Assembly: GCA_949287245.1 (NCBI GenBank)
Contig: CASEFL010000005.1
Location: forward strand, 1 to 64,000
Length of the DNA: 64,000 nt
From: an uncultured Bacillota bacterium
Lineage (GTDB): Bacteria; Bacillota_I; Bacilli_A; RFN20; CAG-826
Direction: 5' to 3'
Shown here: in pieces, positions 56,742 through 64,000 of the stretch
Layout: every line of letters begins with the position of its first letter
Numbering within the stretch: the first letter of the stretch is position 1
The notes under the pieces: model-generated
Told to the model about the DNA's origin: nothing
The model's database searches: none
What the model saw: the letters and a program-made list of their open reading frames with translations, nothing else
Program-made: the position numbers and the translations under genes

Positions 56742-58046
56742 ATGATAGCGAAAGCACGTCACATTGAACTGCCCAATTATCTTCTCTCTCATCAAGAATT
56801 AGAGGTGGCTCCACTTCCAAAGTATGCCTACATTGCAGGGACAAATGGAAGATGCGCTTCTTATTCTTTGACTGTGAAAGAAGGCGATCATGTATGCATT
56901 GGAGATACTCTTGGTATCCGGAAAGGTCCCTTTTTTGAGCAACCCATTATTGCCACCGTCTCTGGGACTTATCTTGGGATTGAGAATCATCTTCATCATA
57001 CGGGCAAAAGTTGCGAGTTCTTGAAAATTGAAAATGATTTCAAGGACGAGTATGGCTCTTCTTGTAAAGAGCGTTCCGAAGAAGAAATTGCTTCTTTAAG
57101 TAAAGAAGATCTTCTCTCCATCATGAAAGACATGGCTTTAGTGGGTCTTGGAGGTTCCTCCTTCCCAAGTTATGTCAAGTTACAAGGCGACCACAAGATC
57201 AATACGATTGTGATTAATGGCGTGGAATGTGAGCCTTCCTTAGCAAGCGACCATCGTTTGATGCTTGAACATCCTCATGAGATCATTGAGGGAGTCAAGA
57301 TTTTAATGAAGGCCGTTGGGGCAAAAGAAGGCATGATTTGCGCGAAATGGATTTATAAAGATTTAGCTGAATCTTGGAGTAGCGCTTTAGCGGGTCAAGA
57401 AGGAACGGGGGTTTCTTTCACTCCTGTTTACAATTTCTATCCCCAAGGATGGGAAGTGGCTTGTATTAAAACAGCAACAGGCATTGATATTCCTAGCGGT
57501 CATCTTCCAGCAGAGTTTGGTATTTTAGAGTATAACGTGGCGACAATTTATTCTCTTTACCTTGCAGTGAAGTATCGTCGTCCTTTATTAACCCGTTATG
57601 TTCAAATCCACGGGAATGGGGTAAAGGAACAAAAATTCTTAGCCGTCCGTATTGGGACTCCTTTTAGCGATTTGCTTCCTTTAGCAAATGGTTATGCTGA
57701 TTCTCCTAACAAAAAAAGAATGATTTTAGGTGGCCCAATGATGGGGAACACCGTGAATGGCGATGATATTATTTGTACGCCTACGGTTACCTCTTATCTC
57801 ATCTTAGATGAAGAAGCTTGGCACGTGGATCCTTGTGTCCGCTGCGGCTCTTGTATTTATAGTTGTCCCACGCATTTGCTCCCGGCTTTAATTAGCCAGG
57901 CGGTAAAATCTGGCAACAAGGACAAAGTAAAAGCACTTCATCCTGAACGTTGTATCGAATGTGGTCTTTGTGCTTATAGCTGCACAAGCCATATTAATGT
58001 GACGGAATTTGTAAGGAGGGCTAAACGGATAGCAAGATTACCATGA
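56742..58046 (+). CDS. rnfC: Rnf electron transport complex subunit C
   Basis: 434 residues. RnfC docks to the membrane complex and carries FMN/NADH-binding and ferredoxin domains. VGLGGSSFPSYVKL is the flavin/NADH region (near 134), similar to the Nqo1 fold. Two 4Fe-4S motifs lie near the C terminus: CVRCGSCIYSCP and CIECGLCAYSC. It begins the rnfCDGEA(x)B operon and overlaps rnfD by 4 bases. Its ribosome binding site is weak. Confidence 0.95.
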   Translation: MIAKARHIELPNYLLSHQELEVAPLPKYAYIAGTNGRCASYSLTVKEGDHVCIGDTLGIRKGPFFEQPIIATVSGTYLGIENHLHHTGKSCEFLKIENDFKDEYGSSCKERSEEEIASLSKEDLLSIMKDMALVGLGGSSFPSYVKLQGDHKINTIVINGVECEPSLASDHRLMLEHPHEIIEGVKILMKAVGAKEGMICAKWIYKDLAESWSSALAGQEGTGVSFTPVYNFYPQGWEVACIKTATGIDIPSGHLPAEFGILEYNVATIYSLYLAVKYRRPLLTRYVQIHGNGVKEQKFLAVRIGTPFSDLLPLANGYADSPNKKRMILGGPMMGNTVNGDDIICTPTVTSYLILDEEAWHVDPCVRCGSCIYSCPTHLLPALISQAVKSGNKDKVKALHPERCIECGLCAYSCTSHINVTEFVRRAKRIARLP

Positions 58047-59191
58047 GTGAAATGAATCAGGTGCGATTTTTGCAAGAACCAAGTCCGCATGTGCGTCGTC
58101 ATGATAGTGCGACCCGCATGATGCTTGATGTTCTTATTGCCTTACTCCCTCTTCTTCTATTTTCCTTTATTATTTATCGCCTTGACGCGCTAAAAGTATT
58201 TGGAATTGCTATTCCTACGATGCTTTTAGCCGAATGGGTGTTTGTCATGATTAAAGGAAAAATGCCTTATGACGGCATGAAACACTCTTTTAAAGAGAAG
58301 TTTTTACACGCCATTAAAACTTACACTCCTTTGAATGCTGTGGCTCCTTTGGTAAGCGCAGTGATTTATGGAATGTGTTTACCTCCAACAACCAGTTGGT
58401 ATGGTGTATTTGTTGGGGCACTTGTGGGCATTGTTCTTGCAAAACTTGTCTTTGGCGGTACAGGACATAACATATTTAATCCTGCCGCTGTAGGGATGAT
58501 TGCTGCTCGGTTATCTTTTGGCAGCAGCATGAGTTATCCGGAAATTACGTGGACAAATGGGGGAACAATTATTGAAGAAATCACCACAGGTGGTTCTCTT
58601 TTATCCCAAGTTTCGCAAACAGGATATGGTTCCCTTACAGATATTAGTCTTCTTGATCTTTTCTTAGGAAAGATGCAAGGAGCGATGGGCGAGGTTTGCA
58701 AAGTCCTTATTCTTGTTGGTTTGCTTTATCTTCTTCTCCGTCAAACCATTGATTGGCGGATTACCTTTACTTATATTGGTGCCTTTACTGCTTTAGTTGC
58801 CATTGTTGGCATTTGTATTGGAGCAGGAAACTTCTACAAAGATTTTGATATTTGGCACTTTATTGGTTTTGAATTCTTAACAGGAGGAATGCTTTTTGGG
58901 GCTGTGTTTATGTTGACAGATCCTGTCACCTCTCCGATTACAAAACCCGGCCGTTATCTTTATGCTTTAATTGCTGCTTCTCTTACTGTGATTATTCGTT
59001 TCTTGGCAAGTGCGCCTGAAGGAGTTGGATATTCCATCCTTTTATCAAATCTCCTTGTCCCAGTTATTGATTATCCAAAATGGGCAAGTGCGCGTTGGAC
59101 TTGGAAAAAAGCGCTTATTGTAGTTGTAATTATTTTTGTTGATATTTTGATCCTTTGCTTAGGGGTCTTCTTTGGAGGAAAAATCAAATGA
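58043..59191 (+). CDS. rnfD: Rnf electron transport complex subunit D
   Basis: 382-residue integral membrane subunit homologous to NqrB, with about ten hydrophobic segments. NPAAVGMIAARL and the C-terminal MLTDPVTSPITKPGRYLY are family motifs. The site where FMN is normally attached to Thr (SGAT) reads TTGGS (181-185), so the acceptor would be Ser185 if it is used at all. Overlaps rnfC and rnfG by 4 bases. Confidence 0.93.
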   Translation: MSEMNQVRFLQEPSPHVRRHDSATRMMLDVLIALLPLLLFSFIIYRLDALKVFGIAIPTMLLAEWVFVMIKGKMPYDGMKHSFKEKFLHAIKTYTPLNAVAPLVSAVIYGMCLPPTTSWYGVFVGALVGIVLAKLVFGGTGHNIFNPAAVGMIAARLSFGSSMSYPEITWTNGGTIIEEITTGGSLLSQVSQTGYGSLTDISLLDLFLGKMQGAMGEVCKVLILVGLLYLLLRQTIDWRITFTYIGAFTALVAIVGICIGAGNFYKDFDIWHFIGFEFLTGGMLFGAVFMLTDPVTSPITKPGRYLYALIAASLTVIIRFLASAPEGVGYSILLSNLLVPVIDYPKWASARWTWKKALIVVVIIFVDILILCLGVFFGGKIK

Positions 59192-62169
59192 AAATCAAAC
59201 TTGATGCTCGACATGTTTTATCCGTCGTTGGCGTTCTTGCCTTAATTGGTGGGGGTGCTGGTGCTTTAGTAGGAACTGTTAATTACTTTACCGATCCCAT
59301 TATCAGTGAAAATAACGACCGTAAAGAATTAGAAGCTTATTACGATTGTTTTCCAGATGCTGCTTCGATTGGGGAAGAAGTTGCTGTTAGTGGGGCAAAG
59401 TACGTTAAGGCTTATCGCGCGGCTTTGGATGCAAGCAATAAGGAAATTGGTCGTGCTTATATCGTTAATGGAAAATCAAGCTACAATGCTGACATTAATT
59501 TAATTGTTGGGGTGAATGATTCTGGTTTAGTCCACATTTCTCTTGTGAATTATGGTCCAGATAATACTGGTGGTTCAGCAACCGTTATTCCTGCTTGGAT
59601 TGACTCTATTAATGAAGATACAAGTAATTTAGAAAACGGGGTTACAACCGGTGGTACGGCGACGGCAAATACGATTCGTGAGATGGTCGCAGAAGCTATT
59701 TCCCTATACGAAGGGGCAGAACCTGGTCCAGGACCAGTGGATCCTTCTTTAGAAAAGTACATCAATCTTTTTGAAGGAGCTGCTTCTGTTGAGGATGAAG
59801 TTAGTGTTTCTGGAACCTATGTGAAGTCTTATCGTGAGGTTAAGGATGCCTCAGGAAATGTGTTAGGAAGAGCATATCTTGTTTCAGGTGAAAATAGTTT
59901 TACCGCCACAATTGAATTCTTAGTCGGAATTACCGCTGAAGGCGAAATTTCTGGTTTATATTTGGAAAAATATGAAGGAAATATTGGCGGAACTCAAGCA
60001 ACGATTGAAAATTGGTTTGACTCGGTAAATAGCAATCCCTCCAATTTTGAAACAGGGCCTTCTGCAAGTGCGACTTATACCACAATTAAAGATGCGGTTA
60101 ATGAAGCAAGAGAACATTATGGAAATGCTCCAGTTACTTCCGATGAGGAGAAATATCTTGCCTTATTTGATGGCGCAGCATCTGTTGGTGAAGAGGTTGC
60201 TGCTTCTGGAACTTATATTACTTCTTATCGCGAGGTGAAAGATGCAAGTGGCAATCTTTTAGGAAGAGCTTATCGCGGAGAGGGGTATAACAGTTATGAT
60301 GTTCATATTGAAATTCTTGTTGGATTAACTCCTGAATTCTCGGTTAGTGGGTTAAGTCTTGAAGACCATTCTGGTGGTATGCCAATGGGTGAAGAAGGCA
60401 TTCGCGACTGGTTTGACGATGTAAACGAAGATCCTTCCAATCTTATTAATACGATGCCAAGTGCAAGTTTCTCTTATGAAACGATTATGAGCATTATCAA
60501 AGAAGCTCAAAAGCACTACGAAGAAGGACCTACCATTAATCTTGATGAATATTACTTATCTTTATTTACAGGCGCTTCAACTTTAGGCGAGGAAGTAGAA
60601 GTAGAAGGGACTTATATTTCTTCTTACCGTGAAGTGAAAGATAGTCATGGCGAGGTACTTGGAGTTGGTTATCTTGCTAATGGGGAAGTGGAAAAGTATA
60701 ACACTAATGTTTCCTTAATCATTGGTGTGAATGAGAATGGTTTAGCTCGTTTAGCCTTAGTTGATTATGGTTCTAGTGGAAAACCTGGTCCTACAACCGA
60801 TACGGTGAACAACTGGATTGATTCTGTCAATGAAGATCCTTCTCATTTAGATGATGTGGACACTGGTGCTTCTTATACCTTGTCTTTAATTAATGACATG
60901 ATTGACGAAGCGGTTTCTCATCATTTAGATGCGGATTATGATGCTTTAGTTTCTAATGTTTCTTCTTGGGGAAGAGTTATTGCTTTAGGCGATACCGACT
61001 TTGTTACTTCCTATCGTACCGCCTATGATGAGAATCAAGAACGGCTCGCGCGTGTTTATAGGGGAAGTTATACTCAAAATGATGGTTCGACGGTAAGTGT
61101 TCTTGTTGCGCTTGATAAAGATGGAAAGCTTACTGTTGGGAATCTAGAAATGTCTGGTGTGGACTCTGCTTATGAAGAAGGAGTAAAAAACTGGATTAGT
61201 AAAATTAATGCAGGAACTGTGGATTATCGCGAAGATATTTCTACTTCTGGCGTTGAACTTGCCGCCTATTCTCTTGCCGCTATTCTTGATGAGGCAAAAG
61301 AAAGCGAAACTCTTTTACTAGAAGAAGAAGGAATTATCACTCCTACCGATCCTGATACCCCTGTTTCAGCAAATGGGGAAGTGATGGCGATGTTCCCAGA
61401 AGCCACTTCTTGGGGCAATCAAGTCACAATTAGTAATGTATGGATGGCCACCGATTACTGGGTTGCCTATGATGAAGAGGAAGCAGAAATCGGCCGTGTT
61501 TATACCATTCGCTTAACAACAGAAGCAAAAGATACTTTATATATTGCGCTTAACGCCGATGGTACTTTTGAAGAGATGAAGATGATTAAGAACTCTTTAT
61601 CCTTAGAAGCCTTAACCGAAGTCGAAAGTTGGATTACGACTTCAAATGCAAGTGACAATATGCCTACTCCAACAGGCGATCCTACAAGCAGTTCTTTAAG
61701 TGATGTTGAAAAAGAAGTTGCAAGTTACACCACAAATGTTGTTTTAGGAATCGAGGATTGCCAAAGAGAATATAACTTAGCAACCGCTGCTACGATGGAT
61801 GAAGCCATTAAAGCTGCGGTGAGCAAAAACTTTGGTGAAAATGCACAATATGACCTTCTTGGGAACGGTTCCTTCACCGTAGATGGCTGTCCTGAAATTG
61901 ACGGAAACTATTACTCTGTTCGTATTCCAGCAAGCAATCCGATGGGTGGAACACCAACTTACCCAGGAAATGTTTATGTTGCTCATATTGACGAGGCCGA
62001 TTATCAAGCAACCTTAATTATCTCGGTTGGCGAATTAACCGATGAGGCTACTGGGGTAACAGCTATTGTTGATGTTTATGGGGAAGAAACAGGAACTCGG
62101 AATCAAGATACGATTGATCGCATTACTGCGGCGTTAATTGAACTGAATAGCGGAAGTGATGCCGCTTAA
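59188..62169 (+). CDS. rnfG: Rnf subunit G, giant form with tandem FMN-binding-like modules
   Basis: About 993 residues (RnfG normally about 200). The N terminus is standard RnfG: one membrane helix (about 10-35) followed by VNYFTDPIISEN. About six related modules of 130-150 residues follow, each with a SYRE-like strand and a L/I-G-R-A-Y strand. The equivalent SYR-like triplets lie at residues 75, 214, 346, 479, 608 and 756. The flavin-acceptor position reads TTGGT (T157), SASAT (T296), SASFS (S429), TGAS (S562), and is lost in modules 5 and 6. A different C-terminal domain of about 130 residues follows. GGAGG precedes the ATG; rnfD overlap is 4 bases. Confidence 0.9.
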   Translation: MKIKLDARHVLSVVGVLALIGGGAGALVGTVNYFTDPIISENNDRKELEAYYDCFPDAASIGEEVAVSGAKYVKAYRAALDASNKEIGRAYIVNGKSSYNADINLIVGVNDSGLVHISLVNYGPDNTGGSATVIPAWIDSINEDTSNLENGVTTGGTATANTIREMVAEAISLYEGAEPGPGPVDPSLEKYINLFEGAASVEDEVSVSGTYVKSYREVKDASGNVLGRAYLVSGENSFTATIEFLVGITAEGEISGLYLEKYEGNIGGTQATIENWFDSVNSNPSNFETGPSASATYTTIKDAVNEAREHYGNAPVTSDEEKYLALFDGAASVGEEVAASGTYITSYREVKDASGNLLGRAYRGEGYNSYDVHIEILVGLTPEFSVSGLSLEDHSGGMPMGEEGIRDWFDDVNEDPSNLINTMPSASFSYETIMSIIKEAQKHYEEGPTINLDEYYLSLFTGASTLGEEVEVEGTYISSYREVKDSHGEVLGVGYLANGEVEKYNTNVSLIIGVNENGLARLALVDYGSSGKPGPTTDTVNNWIDSVNEDPSHLDDVDTGASYTLSLINDMIDEAVSHHLDADYDALVSNVSSWGRVIALGDTDFVTSYRTAYDENQERLARVYRGSYTQNDGSTVSVLVALDKDGKLTVGNLEMSGVDSAYEEGVKNWISKINAGTVDYREDISTSGVELAAYSLAAILDEAKESETLLLEEEGIITPTDPDTPVSANGEVMAMFPEATSWGNQVTISNVWMATDYWVAYDEEEAEIGRVYTIRLTTEAKDTLYIALNADGTFEEMKMIKNSLSLEALTEVESWITTSNASDNMPTPTGDPTSSSLSDVEKEVASYTTNVVLGIEDCQREYNLATAATMDEAIKAAVSKNFGENAQYDLLGNGSFTVDGCPEIDGNYYSVRIPASNPMGGTPTYPGNVYVAHIDEADYQATLIISVGELTDEATGVTAIVDVYGEETGTRNQDTIDRITAALIELNSGSDAA
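59338..59730 (+). repeat. RnfG module 1 (best FMN-binding match)
   Basis: Residues about 51-181. It has AYRAALDASNKEIGRAY and the acceptor motif TTGGT (residues 153-157). Its position right after the membrane helix is that of the normal RnfG flavin domain. Confidence 0.8.
59758..60135 (+). repeat. RnfG module 2
   Basis: Residues about 191-316. SYREVKDASGNVLGRAY is very close to module 3. The acceptor region is SASAT (T296). A Pro/Gly linker (GPGPVDP) separates it from module 1. Confidence 0.75.
60149..60534 (+). repeat. RnfG module 3
   Basis: Residues about 321-449. SYREVKDASGNLLGRAY differs from module 2 at one position, suggesting duplication of this pair. The acceptor region is SASFS (Ser429). 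Confidence 0.75.
60545..60930 (+). repeat. RnfG module 4
   Basis: Residues about 453-581. SYREVKDSHGEVLGVGY, then VSLIIGVNENG, which resembles module 1 (LIVGVNDSG). The acceptor region is TGAS (559-562), one residue from the SGAT consensus apart from the final Ser. Confidence 0.75.
60937..61330 (+). repeat. RnfG module 5 (acceptor lost)
   Basis: Residues about 584-715. SYRTAYDENQERLARVY matches the module pattern. The acceptor region reads STSGVE, with no Thr at the flavin position. Confidence 0.65.
61378..61770 (+). repeat. RnfG module 6 (most divergent)
   Basis: Residues about 731-861. DYWVAYDEEEAEIGRVY keeps the strand pattern. The acceptor region (GDPTSSSLS) has no recognisable motif. 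A different C-terminal domain follows to the stop. Confidence 0.6.
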
Positions 62170-62178
62170 GGAGGGAGT

Positions 62179-62901
62179 ATGGCGGAAGCAACTCTAAACT
62201 TAAAAGGAGAAAGAAAGGAAGCCTTCCTTTCCGGAATTTGGAAGGCGAATCCTTTATTTGTCTCCTTACTTGGAATGTGTCCTGCACTTGCCGTAACAAC
62301 AAATTTTGAATCGGCTATTGGCATGGGTATTCTCTTTACTTTTGTTCTTCTTGGTTCCAATGTCTTTGTTTCTCTTTTACGGAAGATTATTCCTGAAGAA
62401 GTAACAACTCCCTGTTACATTGTCATCATCGCTACTTTTGTTACGATTGTGAAAATGCTTTGCGAAGCATTCCTCCCGGAACTATATACTTCTTTAGGCG
62501 TTTTCCTTTCTTTGCTTGTCGTGAACTGCATTGTTTTAGGAAGAAGCGAAGCTTATGCTTCTAAAAATACGGTCTTAAATAGCACTTTAGACGCTTTAGG
62601 AAATGGAATTGGATTTACTTGGGCGATTTGTGCAATTGCCTTAGTAAGAGAAATTTTAGGAACAGGAATGATTACTTTTGGAAAAGTGTTTACTTTTATT
62701 CCTGAATATTCTCTCCCTATTTTAAAAGTGGAAGGTGTCTATGATCTTTCGATTGAATTCTTCCAACGTTCTCTTGGTGGTTTCCTTGTTCTTGGTATTG
62801 CTTTAGCGATTATTGCTGCATCTTCTAACTACAAGAAAAACAAAAAGCGTGTGGATGAAGCATTAGCGAAAAACGCTGCAAGCGTGGAAGGAGGGAATTA
62901 A
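62179..62901 (+). CDS. rnfE: Rnf electron transport complex subunit E
   Basis: 240 residues, homologous to NqrD, with six hydrophobic segments. The start GIWKANPLFVSLLGMCPALA carries the conserved Cys, and VNCIVLGRSEAYASKN holds the second; together with RnfA these ligate the membrane iron site. GGAGG precedes the ATG, 9 bases after rnfG. The C-terminal tail of about 30 residues is charged. Confidence 0.95.
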   Translation: MAEATLNLKGERKEAFLSGIWKANPLFVSLLGMCPALAVTTNFESAIGMGILFTFVLLGSNVFVSLLRKIIPEEVTTPCYIVIIATFVTIVKMLCEAFLPELYTSLGVFLSLLVVNCIVLGRSEAYASKNTVLNSTLDALGNGIGFTWAICAIALVREILGTGMITFGKVFTFIPEYSLPILKVEGVYDLSIEFFQRSLGGFLVLGIALAIIAASSNYKKNKKRVDEALAKNAASVEGGN

Positions 62902-62903
62902 CA

Positions 62904-63488
62904 ATGGATTTATTTGTTGCCTTTCTTTTAGCGATTGTTTCTAGTGCCTTAATCGATAATGTTGTCTTAAGTCGTTTTTATGGCATTTGTTCTTTTGTTG
63001 GCACAGGGAATAAGATAAAACCCGCTTTCTGCATGGGTTTAGCGGTCACCTTTGTTATTGTTTTAGCCGCTATTGTTTGTTGGCCTTTATATACCTATGT
63101 TTTAGTGCCCGCAAACATGGCCTTCTTAGACACGATTGTTTATATCTTAGTCATTGCTTGTCTTGTGCAATTAGTAGGAATCTTTATCAAAAAAACTTCT
63201 CCTACTTTATATAAAACATTAGGCATTTATCTTCCTTTAATTACCACAAACTGTGCGGTGCTTGGTGTCGCGCAAGGCAATACGGATCAAAGCTTAGATT
63301 TCCTTTCTTCTTTAGGAAATGCATTAGGAACTTCTCTTGGCTATTTAATTGTCATTGTTCTTTTTGCTACCATTCGGGAACGGCTTGAAAGTGCTGATAC
63401 TCCCAAAGCCTTTAAAGGAATTCCTCTTGCTTTAGTCACGGCTGGCTTAATGGCTTTAGCCTTCATGGGCTTACAAGGGATTGTTTAA
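62904..63488 (+). CDS. rnfA: Rnf electron transport complex subunit A
   Basis: 194 residues, homologous to NqrE, six hydrophobic segments. YGICSFVGTGNKI and LPLITTNCAVLGVA contain the conserved cysteines for the shared iron site with RnfE. It starts 2 bases after rnfE. A small Cys-rich protein gene follows instead of rnfB. Confidence 0.95.
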   Translation: MDLFVAFLLAIVSSALIDNVVLSRFYGICSFVGTGNKIKPAFCMGLAVTFVIVLAAIVCWPLYTYVLVPANMAFLDTIVYILVIACLVQLVGIFIKKTSPTLYKTLGIYLPLITTNCAVLGVAQGNTDQSLDFLSSLGNALGTSLGYLIVIVLFATIRERLESADTPKAFKGIPLALVTAGLMALAFMGLQGIV

Positions 63489-63489
63489 T

Positions 63490-63726
63490 ATGTCAAGTGA
63501 AGTGGCAACCATTCTTGCCATTCTCATTGTTGTATTGCTGGTTATCCTTTTTGTTGTTTCCTTTGTTATCTATGTGAAAACGCCTCCTCCGAAAGGATGT
63601 GAACGTCTTCCTAAAGATAAGGAAGCTTGTATGCACTGCGATAATGAAGGATGTAAGTTATATGTTCCAAAGGGAGCATTAAAACCTCAAGAAGAGGAGA
63701 ATAAGGAGGATGTAGGACATGATTAA
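63490..63726 (+). CDS. Small membrane protein with four cysteines, NqrM-like
   Basis: 78 residues: one membrane helix (about 7-29), then KTPPPKGC, with Cys37, Cys47, Cys50 and Cys55, then an acidic tail. This layout, one helix and four cysteines next to a Rnf/Nqr-type complex, recalls NqrM, the maturation factor that delivers iron to the NqrD/NqrE site in Na+-NQR. Homology is not proven. It lies between rnfA and rnfB in the operon. ATG 63490 is preferred; a TTG at 63481 overlaps the rnfA stop. It overlaps rnfB by 8 bases. Confidence 0.65.
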   Translation: MSSEVATILAILIVVLLVILFVVSFVIYVKTPPPKGCERLPKDKEACMHCDNEGCKLYVPKGALKPQEEENKEDVGHD

Positions 63727-64000
63727 TTTACTCTTTGATCAAAATCTTGATAATGGACTTGCGATTTTATATAGCATCCTTGTTTTAGTTGCTTTAGGCG
63801 CTATTTTTGCTTTTCTTCTTTGCTTATTTTTTCAAATCTTCAAAGTAAAAGAAGACTTAAGAGTTCGTGAAGTGGAAAAGAAATTACCCGGATATAACTG
63901 TGGGGCATGTGGGAATCCTGGCTGTCATGATATGGCAGAGAAACTTGTTTCTGGTGAAATTAAAGATCCAAGTTTGTGTAAGCCAGGGAAAAAAGAAACA
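63719..64000 (+). CDS. rnfB: Rnf electron transport complex subunit B (partial, runs off window)
   Basis: The first 94 residues are in the window. One N-terminal membrane helix (about 14-40) is followed by YNCGACGNPGCHDMA...SLC, the first 4Fe-4S motif of RnfB. The remaining ferredoxin domains lie beyond the window edge. AAGGAGGA lies 8 bases before the ATG. The order A-x-B completes the usual rnfCDGEAB set. Confidence 0.93.
   Translation, partial: MINLLFDQNLDNGLAILYSILVLVALGAIFAFLLCLFFQIFKVKEDLRVREVEKKLPGYNCGACGNPGCHDMAEKLVSGEIKDPSLCKPGKKET

Follow-up and report, generated by a model that had tools for sequence, protein, structure and literature searches.

In the Rnf complex, electrons pass from the iron-sulfur centre of RnfA/E to RnfG and then to RnfD, and the 2x[4Fe-4S] ferredoxin-like domain of RnfB is their usual entry point. 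Multi-flavinylated RnfG proteins have been reported in RNF gene clusters and were proposed to offer electrons an additional route to acceptors outside the cell (Meheust et al., 2021, eLife, PMC8238504). Proteins with several FMN domains have been produced, and for one of them mass measurement confirmed three covalent flavins (PMC10339131); such multi-FMN chains have been both made and modelled (PMC10339131, PMC11334425). The motif recognized by ApbE, D-x-x-[S/T]-G-A-[S/T], tolerates substitutions: loss of the Asp has little effect, Gly-to-Ala and Ala-to-Val changes bring flavinylation down to about half, and ApbE acts less efficiently on Ser than on Thr (PMC12052999).

We compared with these systems a long RnfG encoded in a window of 64,000 nucleotides from an uncultured Bacillota bacterium (assembly GCA_949287245.1, contig CASEFL010000005.1, positions 1 to 64,000, forward strand). 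A first-pass annotation, made from the sequence letters, had proposed that RnfG is expanded here into a chain of FMN-binding-like modules.

The long rnfG gene occupies the rnfG slot of an rnf operon

The operon is complete, with the layout rnfCDGEA-x-B-apbE, and the long rnfG is a single open reading frame whose start ATG overlaps the rnfD stop. The genes are as follows:

56742..58046, forward strand: rnfC (TIGR01945, 314 bits, cut-off 246)
58043..59191, forward strand: rnfD (PF03116, E 1.3e-77), with the ApbE acceptor segment ITTGGSLL
59188..62169, forward strand: rnfG, 993 aa, an N-terminal membrane helix followed by tandem FMN_bind-type modules
62179..62901, forward strand: rnfE (PF02508, E 5.2e-59)
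62904..63488, forward strand: rnfA (TIGR01943, 239 bits, exceeding the cut-off)
63481..63726, forward strand: gene for a small membrane protein with a Cys motif, between rnfA and rnfB
63719..64000, continuing to contig position 64084, forward strand: rnfB, 121 aa, with one Fe-S domain and no 2x[4Fe-4S] domain
contig 64141-65205, past the window end and directly after rnfB: apbE (PF02424, E 1.1e-37)

Next after apbE, beyond the window, come one NusG_II gene and one Hpre_diP_synt_I gene. The order in which rnfG lies between rnfD and rnfE is repeated in a further 25 genomes from this genus, and ApbE is confined to the rnf-carrying genomes within the genus. This position, together with the N-terminal helix and an RnfG-type domain, supports the original identification of the protein as RnfG. 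Long orthologues of 976, 1015, 1114, and 1118 aa stand at the same locus in four more genomes from the genus, all uninterrupted reading frames with 44-54% identity to the window RnfG.

Several further features of these loci were observed. At the genus loci where RnfB was found (63719 here; equivalents L027-L051), it is about 105-130 aa long: it has a membrane helix plus a single Fe-S domain and lacks the 2x[4Fe-4S] ferredoxin-like domain. The small membrane protein with its conserved Cys motif (68-81 aa) is present in the rnfA/rnfB gap of G001, G006, G020, and G031 as well, and the copy at 63481-63726 gave no NCBIfam match. Two genomes with a three-module RnfG contain a second rnfD-like gene adjoining a single FMN_bind protein (G013:C6:12134-13769 and G033:C28:6385-8022), probably a second Rnf-like cluster. 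About 6.5 kb past apbE and outside the window, a lipoprotein (L054:9706-11502; contig 71705-73501) combines an FMN_bind-like domain with BspA-type LRR_5 repeats and carries SGVTGASAS; it is a possible second ApbE substrate and has no match in any of the 36 remaining genomes from the genus. Phage records gave no match.

RnfG is built from six, possibly seven, tandem modules

In self-comparison of the 993-aa protein, strong off-diagonals appeared at offsets of 132, 133, 139, and 148 residues; strands of the SYR/GRAY type are repeated at protein positions 88, 214/227, 346/359, 479/493, 608/622, and 756/770. An iterated module HMM found six copies (E 5.7e-26 to 8.9e-38), bearing out the earlier description of one long reading frame with tandem modules at these spacings. 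Homology to RnfG was assessed with a reference profile built from ten single-module RnfGs of the genus, which matched the profile of modules 2-4 and their relatives with E 6.5e-19 (hhalign). The modules, all on the forward strand, are:

59338..59718, forward strand: module 1, equivalent to the usual RnfG domain; acceptor TGGT with T157; HMM E 8.9e-38; hhalign against single-module RnfGs E 3.1e-17; 9eri_G Z 12.4
59758..60129, forward strand: module 2, acceptor region PSASAT; CbFMN4 domain 1 (8p2b) Z 8.4 over residues 227-310
60154..60528, forward strand: module 3, acceptor region PSASFS; 7zc6_G (RnfG) Z 12.7 over 129 residues, rmsd 2.7, residues 314-448
60553..60933, forward strand: module 4, DVDTGAS, the sole full ApbE consensus; recognized by module HMM and profile comparison
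60937..61323, forward strand: module 5, SGVE in place of the acceptor, in a segment conserved in orthologues; hhalign against single-module RnfGs E 1.7e-9; 9eri_G Z 12.4
61381..61782, forward strand: module 6, acceptor lost; HMM E 5.7e-26; hhalign E 1.2e-5 against single-module RnfGs and 8.4e-9 against modules 2-4
61795..62157, forward strand: possible module 7, residues 870-988, similar only in strand/helix order (AlphaFold2 secondary structure)

When module 1 was excluded, the profile of modules 2-4 and their counterparts matched CbFMN4 domain 1, a proven FMN domain, in the PDB (E 0.0023), as well as A. woodii RnfG (E 0.018) and C. tetanomorphum RnfG (E 0.032). The full-length AlphaFold2 model shows a similar strand/helix pattern seven times, with pLDDT mostly 75-85 within modules and a pTM of 0.33, at which the placement of the modules relative to one another is not confident. 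In structural comparison of this model, seven chains aligned with Z >= 8, on modules 1, 2, and 3, and all are RnfG, NqrC, or CbFMN4; A. woodii RnfG (9eri_G) aligns across residues 16-178. A separate model of residues 580-993 placed module 5 on A. woodii RnfG over 128 residues (2.5 A, 8% identity), and here again no chain of another kind than these three reached Z 8. Structure prediction, one of the checks proposed at the outset, therefore points to an FMN_bind fold for modules 1-3 and 5 (Z 8.4-12.7), and modules 4 and 6 match FMN_bind by profile. The top rows of a full-length Foldseek search were long proteins with TM of about 0.06 and are meaningless.

Mutual alignment of the modules, their alignment with RnfG, and a fold or profile match of FMN_bind type, on which the first-pass proposal depended, were all borne out, module 7 excepted. 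The earlier count of about six modules holds by HMM and missed the C-terminal module-like unit at residues 870-988. This unit has no significant profile match to the other modules; its homology to them is unsupported by profiles, the likeness being one of secondary structure only.

Standard family models perform poorly on this lineage. TIGR01947 matched residues 16-115 (E 1.3e-5, 25.4 bits), below the NCBI curated cut-off of 102 bits; since the three ordinary RnfGs scanned from the genus, each with a single module, also miss this cut-off (29-43 bits), the failure reflects divergence of the lineage, and membership in RnfG rests on gene position and fold. In the suggested search against PF04205 (gathering cut-off 22 bits), the window protein gave no match at E 10, module 1 reached 14.1 bits in a genome scan, and none of the three scanned single-module RnfGs attained the cut-off. 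Two long orthologues did pass it, namely G032 (30.6 bits, in its sixth module) and G017 (25.6 bits). An sCache_3_3 Pfam match above its own cut-off (34.7 bits) was put down to the repeated strand pattern, because it falls within RnfG-like modules whose predicted folds match RnfG.

Candidate flavin acceptors are retained in some modules

A single full ApbE consensus is present in the protein, DVDTGAS at residues 556-562 (60853..60873, forward strand), compared with 0.015 expected in shuffles; S562 of module 4 is thus a predicted acceptor. Module 1 has TGGT in register at residues 154-157, where orthologues have TGAT or TGAS; T157 is a good candidate for covalent FMN. In modules 2 and 3 the corresponding segments are PSASAT and PSASFS; T296 and S429 can be brought into register only by taking two residues out of the helix that follows, and otherwise the last S of PSAS takes the aligned position. 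These PSAS-like remnants are weak candidate sites, PSAS/PSAG being putative substrates. SGVE stands in module 5, and module 6 has no acceptor. We count two good candidates (T157 and S562) and two weak ones. The first-pass annotation had named all four residues, which do exist, with the reservation on register for T296 and S429; it was right about the decay toward the C terminus and the loss in modules 5-6, but not in treating the motif as intact in module 1 and partly kept in modules 2-4, as module 1 has TGGT and the full consensus belongs to module 4 alone.

The acceptor motif of RnfD also varies across the genus, with TGGS, TGGT, AGGT, SPT, and SAT in the aligned region and GG[T/S] variants common. 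This variation suggests relaxed ApbE specificity in the lineage, and because GG[T/S] is common in RnfD, TGGT is probably accepted by the lineage's ApbE.

In this mixed layout flavin is probable on modules 1 and 4 and conceivable on modules 2-3, and none is expected on 5-6, which suggests a short flavin relay whose end is flavin-free. The multi-flavin relay and the extended arm had been offered as alternatives; the sequence favours a mixture of both. We give an about even chance to an outward relay of two to four flavins with a flavin-free distal part, derived by in-gene duplication of a single FMN_bind domain. Under this proposal, the single domain of RnfG would have been duplicated within the gene, so that six modules, or possibly seven, follow one another head to tail on the outside of the membrane. 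Module 1 would keep the ordinary RnfG role between the iron-sulfur centre of RnfA/E and RnfD, and ApbE would flavinylate module 4 too and perhaps modules 2-3. The resulting chain could take Rnf electrons outward to an extracellular acceptor, and terminal modules 5-7 might serve as a spacer or a docking end free of flavin. The observations underlying this proposal are gene position, tandem homology, predicted fold, the orthologues, constraint on the modules, and the apbE gene at the operon end. Against it, the best extra acceptor, that of module 4, does not keep its place across the long-RnfG clade (the counterpart is missing in G021 and reads SSGT in G025, G017, and G032).

It is also possible, though distinctly less probable, that flavin is bound on module 1 only and that the remaining modules are FMN_bind-derived spacers, making up an arm or coat at the surface whose task would be to position the complex, protect it, or bind a partner. 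Modules 5 and 6 fit such a role, having lost the acceptor in all five long orthologues and yet remaining conserved and folding as or matching FMN_bind. The same applies to the restriction of the full consensus to module 4 in the window and to a two-module lineage that has weak motifs only. However, DVDTGAS lies in the correct register, and downstream modules of orthologues carry in-register acceptors of their own: TGAT in module 3 of G017 and SGGT in module 6 of G032, the very module that passes the PF04205 cut-off, besides the SSGT segments. Moreover, a separate three-module lineage (G015, G026, G034, and G036) retains a G-x-T acceptor in all three modules.

The host appears to lack a peptidoglycan wall

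The PF00905 transpeptidase and PF01098 FtsW/RodA families are absent from all 37 genomes of the genus and present in ten of 14 control genomes. Judged from this gene content, cells of the genus probably have no peptidoglycan wall, so an arm that crosses the wall is unlikely, and we disfavour this candidate. Since the bacterium appears wall-less, the chain proposed above would project freely into the surroundings rather than cross peptidoglycan. A bolder version, in which the free chain of a wall-less cell delivers electrons straight to acceptors outside or to partner cells and the distal domains have turned from covalent flavin carriage to non-covalent ligand binding or docking, strikes us as improbable. 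As a point against the relay in general, no conserved extracellular electron acceptor or partner was found, the lone FMN_bind-like lipoprotein near the operon being unique to this genome within the genus.

Module number varies within the genus

Of 26 genomes surveyed in the genus, ten have a single-module RnfG, four have two modules, seven have three, and five have six or more; module count differs even among the five long orthologues. Multi-module genomes do not form one clade on a tree of RnfD, which was chosen because it is independent of the repeats; the tree, which contains long branches, implies four state changes (AU p 0.0002). Multi-module RnfG hence occurs in several separate lineages, through repeated gain or else through loss. 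Beyond the genus, the profile of modules 2-4 found one match in each of 60 genomes of the order, in RnfG-sized frames of about 160-280 aa, none longer than 277 aa, as judged by sequence match and frame length.

Copy number might instead be largely a by-product of frequent in-gene duplication by slippage or recombination, with variable surface repeats tolerated on a wall-less cell and no role in electron transfer. The spread from one to seven or more copies inside one genus, the differing counts of the long orthologues, and near repeats in DNA (82% identity between modules 2 and 3 of G021; 79% between modules 4 and 6 of G017) are in keeping with this explanation. We nevertheless think it unlikely, as dN/dS between G025 and G032 is well under 1 in every module and the tail (0.16-0.34, tending upward toward the C terminus) and the long form is found in all five members of one clade. 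Some G017/G032 pairs gave higher dN/dS, up to 0.79, partly because the compared modules may not be orthologous. Finally, although at least one related genome is a metagenome assembly, an assembly or annotation artefact or frameshift fusing separate genes is refuted to near certainty by the continuous reading frame at the same locus in five genomes, four of them orthologues, with tight neighbours conserved.

The survey of relatives proposed in the first-pass annotation thus yielded four orthologues of 976-1118 aa and a genus-wide range of 1, 2, 3, and 6-7+ modules. Such a range in one genus provides a natural series for studying the effect of extra flavin domains on the Rnf pump and for asking whether Rnf can pass electrons outward.

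Comparison with known systems

The canonical RnfGs of A. woodii (9eri_G) and C. tetanomorphum (7zc6_G) share with the window RnfG the place in the operon, the N-terminal helix, and the fold of modules 1, 3, and 5. They have one domain in about 200 aa, whereas the window RnfG has six or seven, with TGGT in module 1. SaFMN3 and CbFMN4 (PMC10339131) likewise consist of head-to-tail FMN_bind domains, and modules 2-4 find their best PDB sequence match in CbFMN4 domain 1. Within each of these two proteins, which are not RnfGs, the domains share more than 80% identity and all carry the binding motif; in contrast, the modules of the window RnfG are divergent and their acceptors partly lost. The beads-on-a-string FMN-bind1 proteins (Huang et al., 2024, PMC11334425) resemble it in that the predicted model shows distinct domains with low-confidence linkers between them, but the window RnfG belongs to an Rnf complex and its distal domains are acceptor-less.

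The multi-flavinylated RnfGs of Meheust et al. (2021) also lie in an RNF cluster and have more than one FMN-binding domain; the first-pass statement that no such RnfG had been described was therefore mistaken as to kind. That survey counted annotated FMN-binding domains, and the window RnfG, which lacks PF04205 at cut-off, could have escaped it. Since multi-domain RnfGs can evade the standard FMN_bind and RnfG models, surveys based on those models may undercount them. The window RnfG further differs in mostly lacking a full acceptor motif per module and in a host that appears wall-less. With six modules of FMN_bind type, it is best regarded, on sequence grounds, as a divergent form of the multi-flavinylated RnfG class; its distinguishing features are that acceptors are kept in only some domains and that relatives have chains of other lengths.
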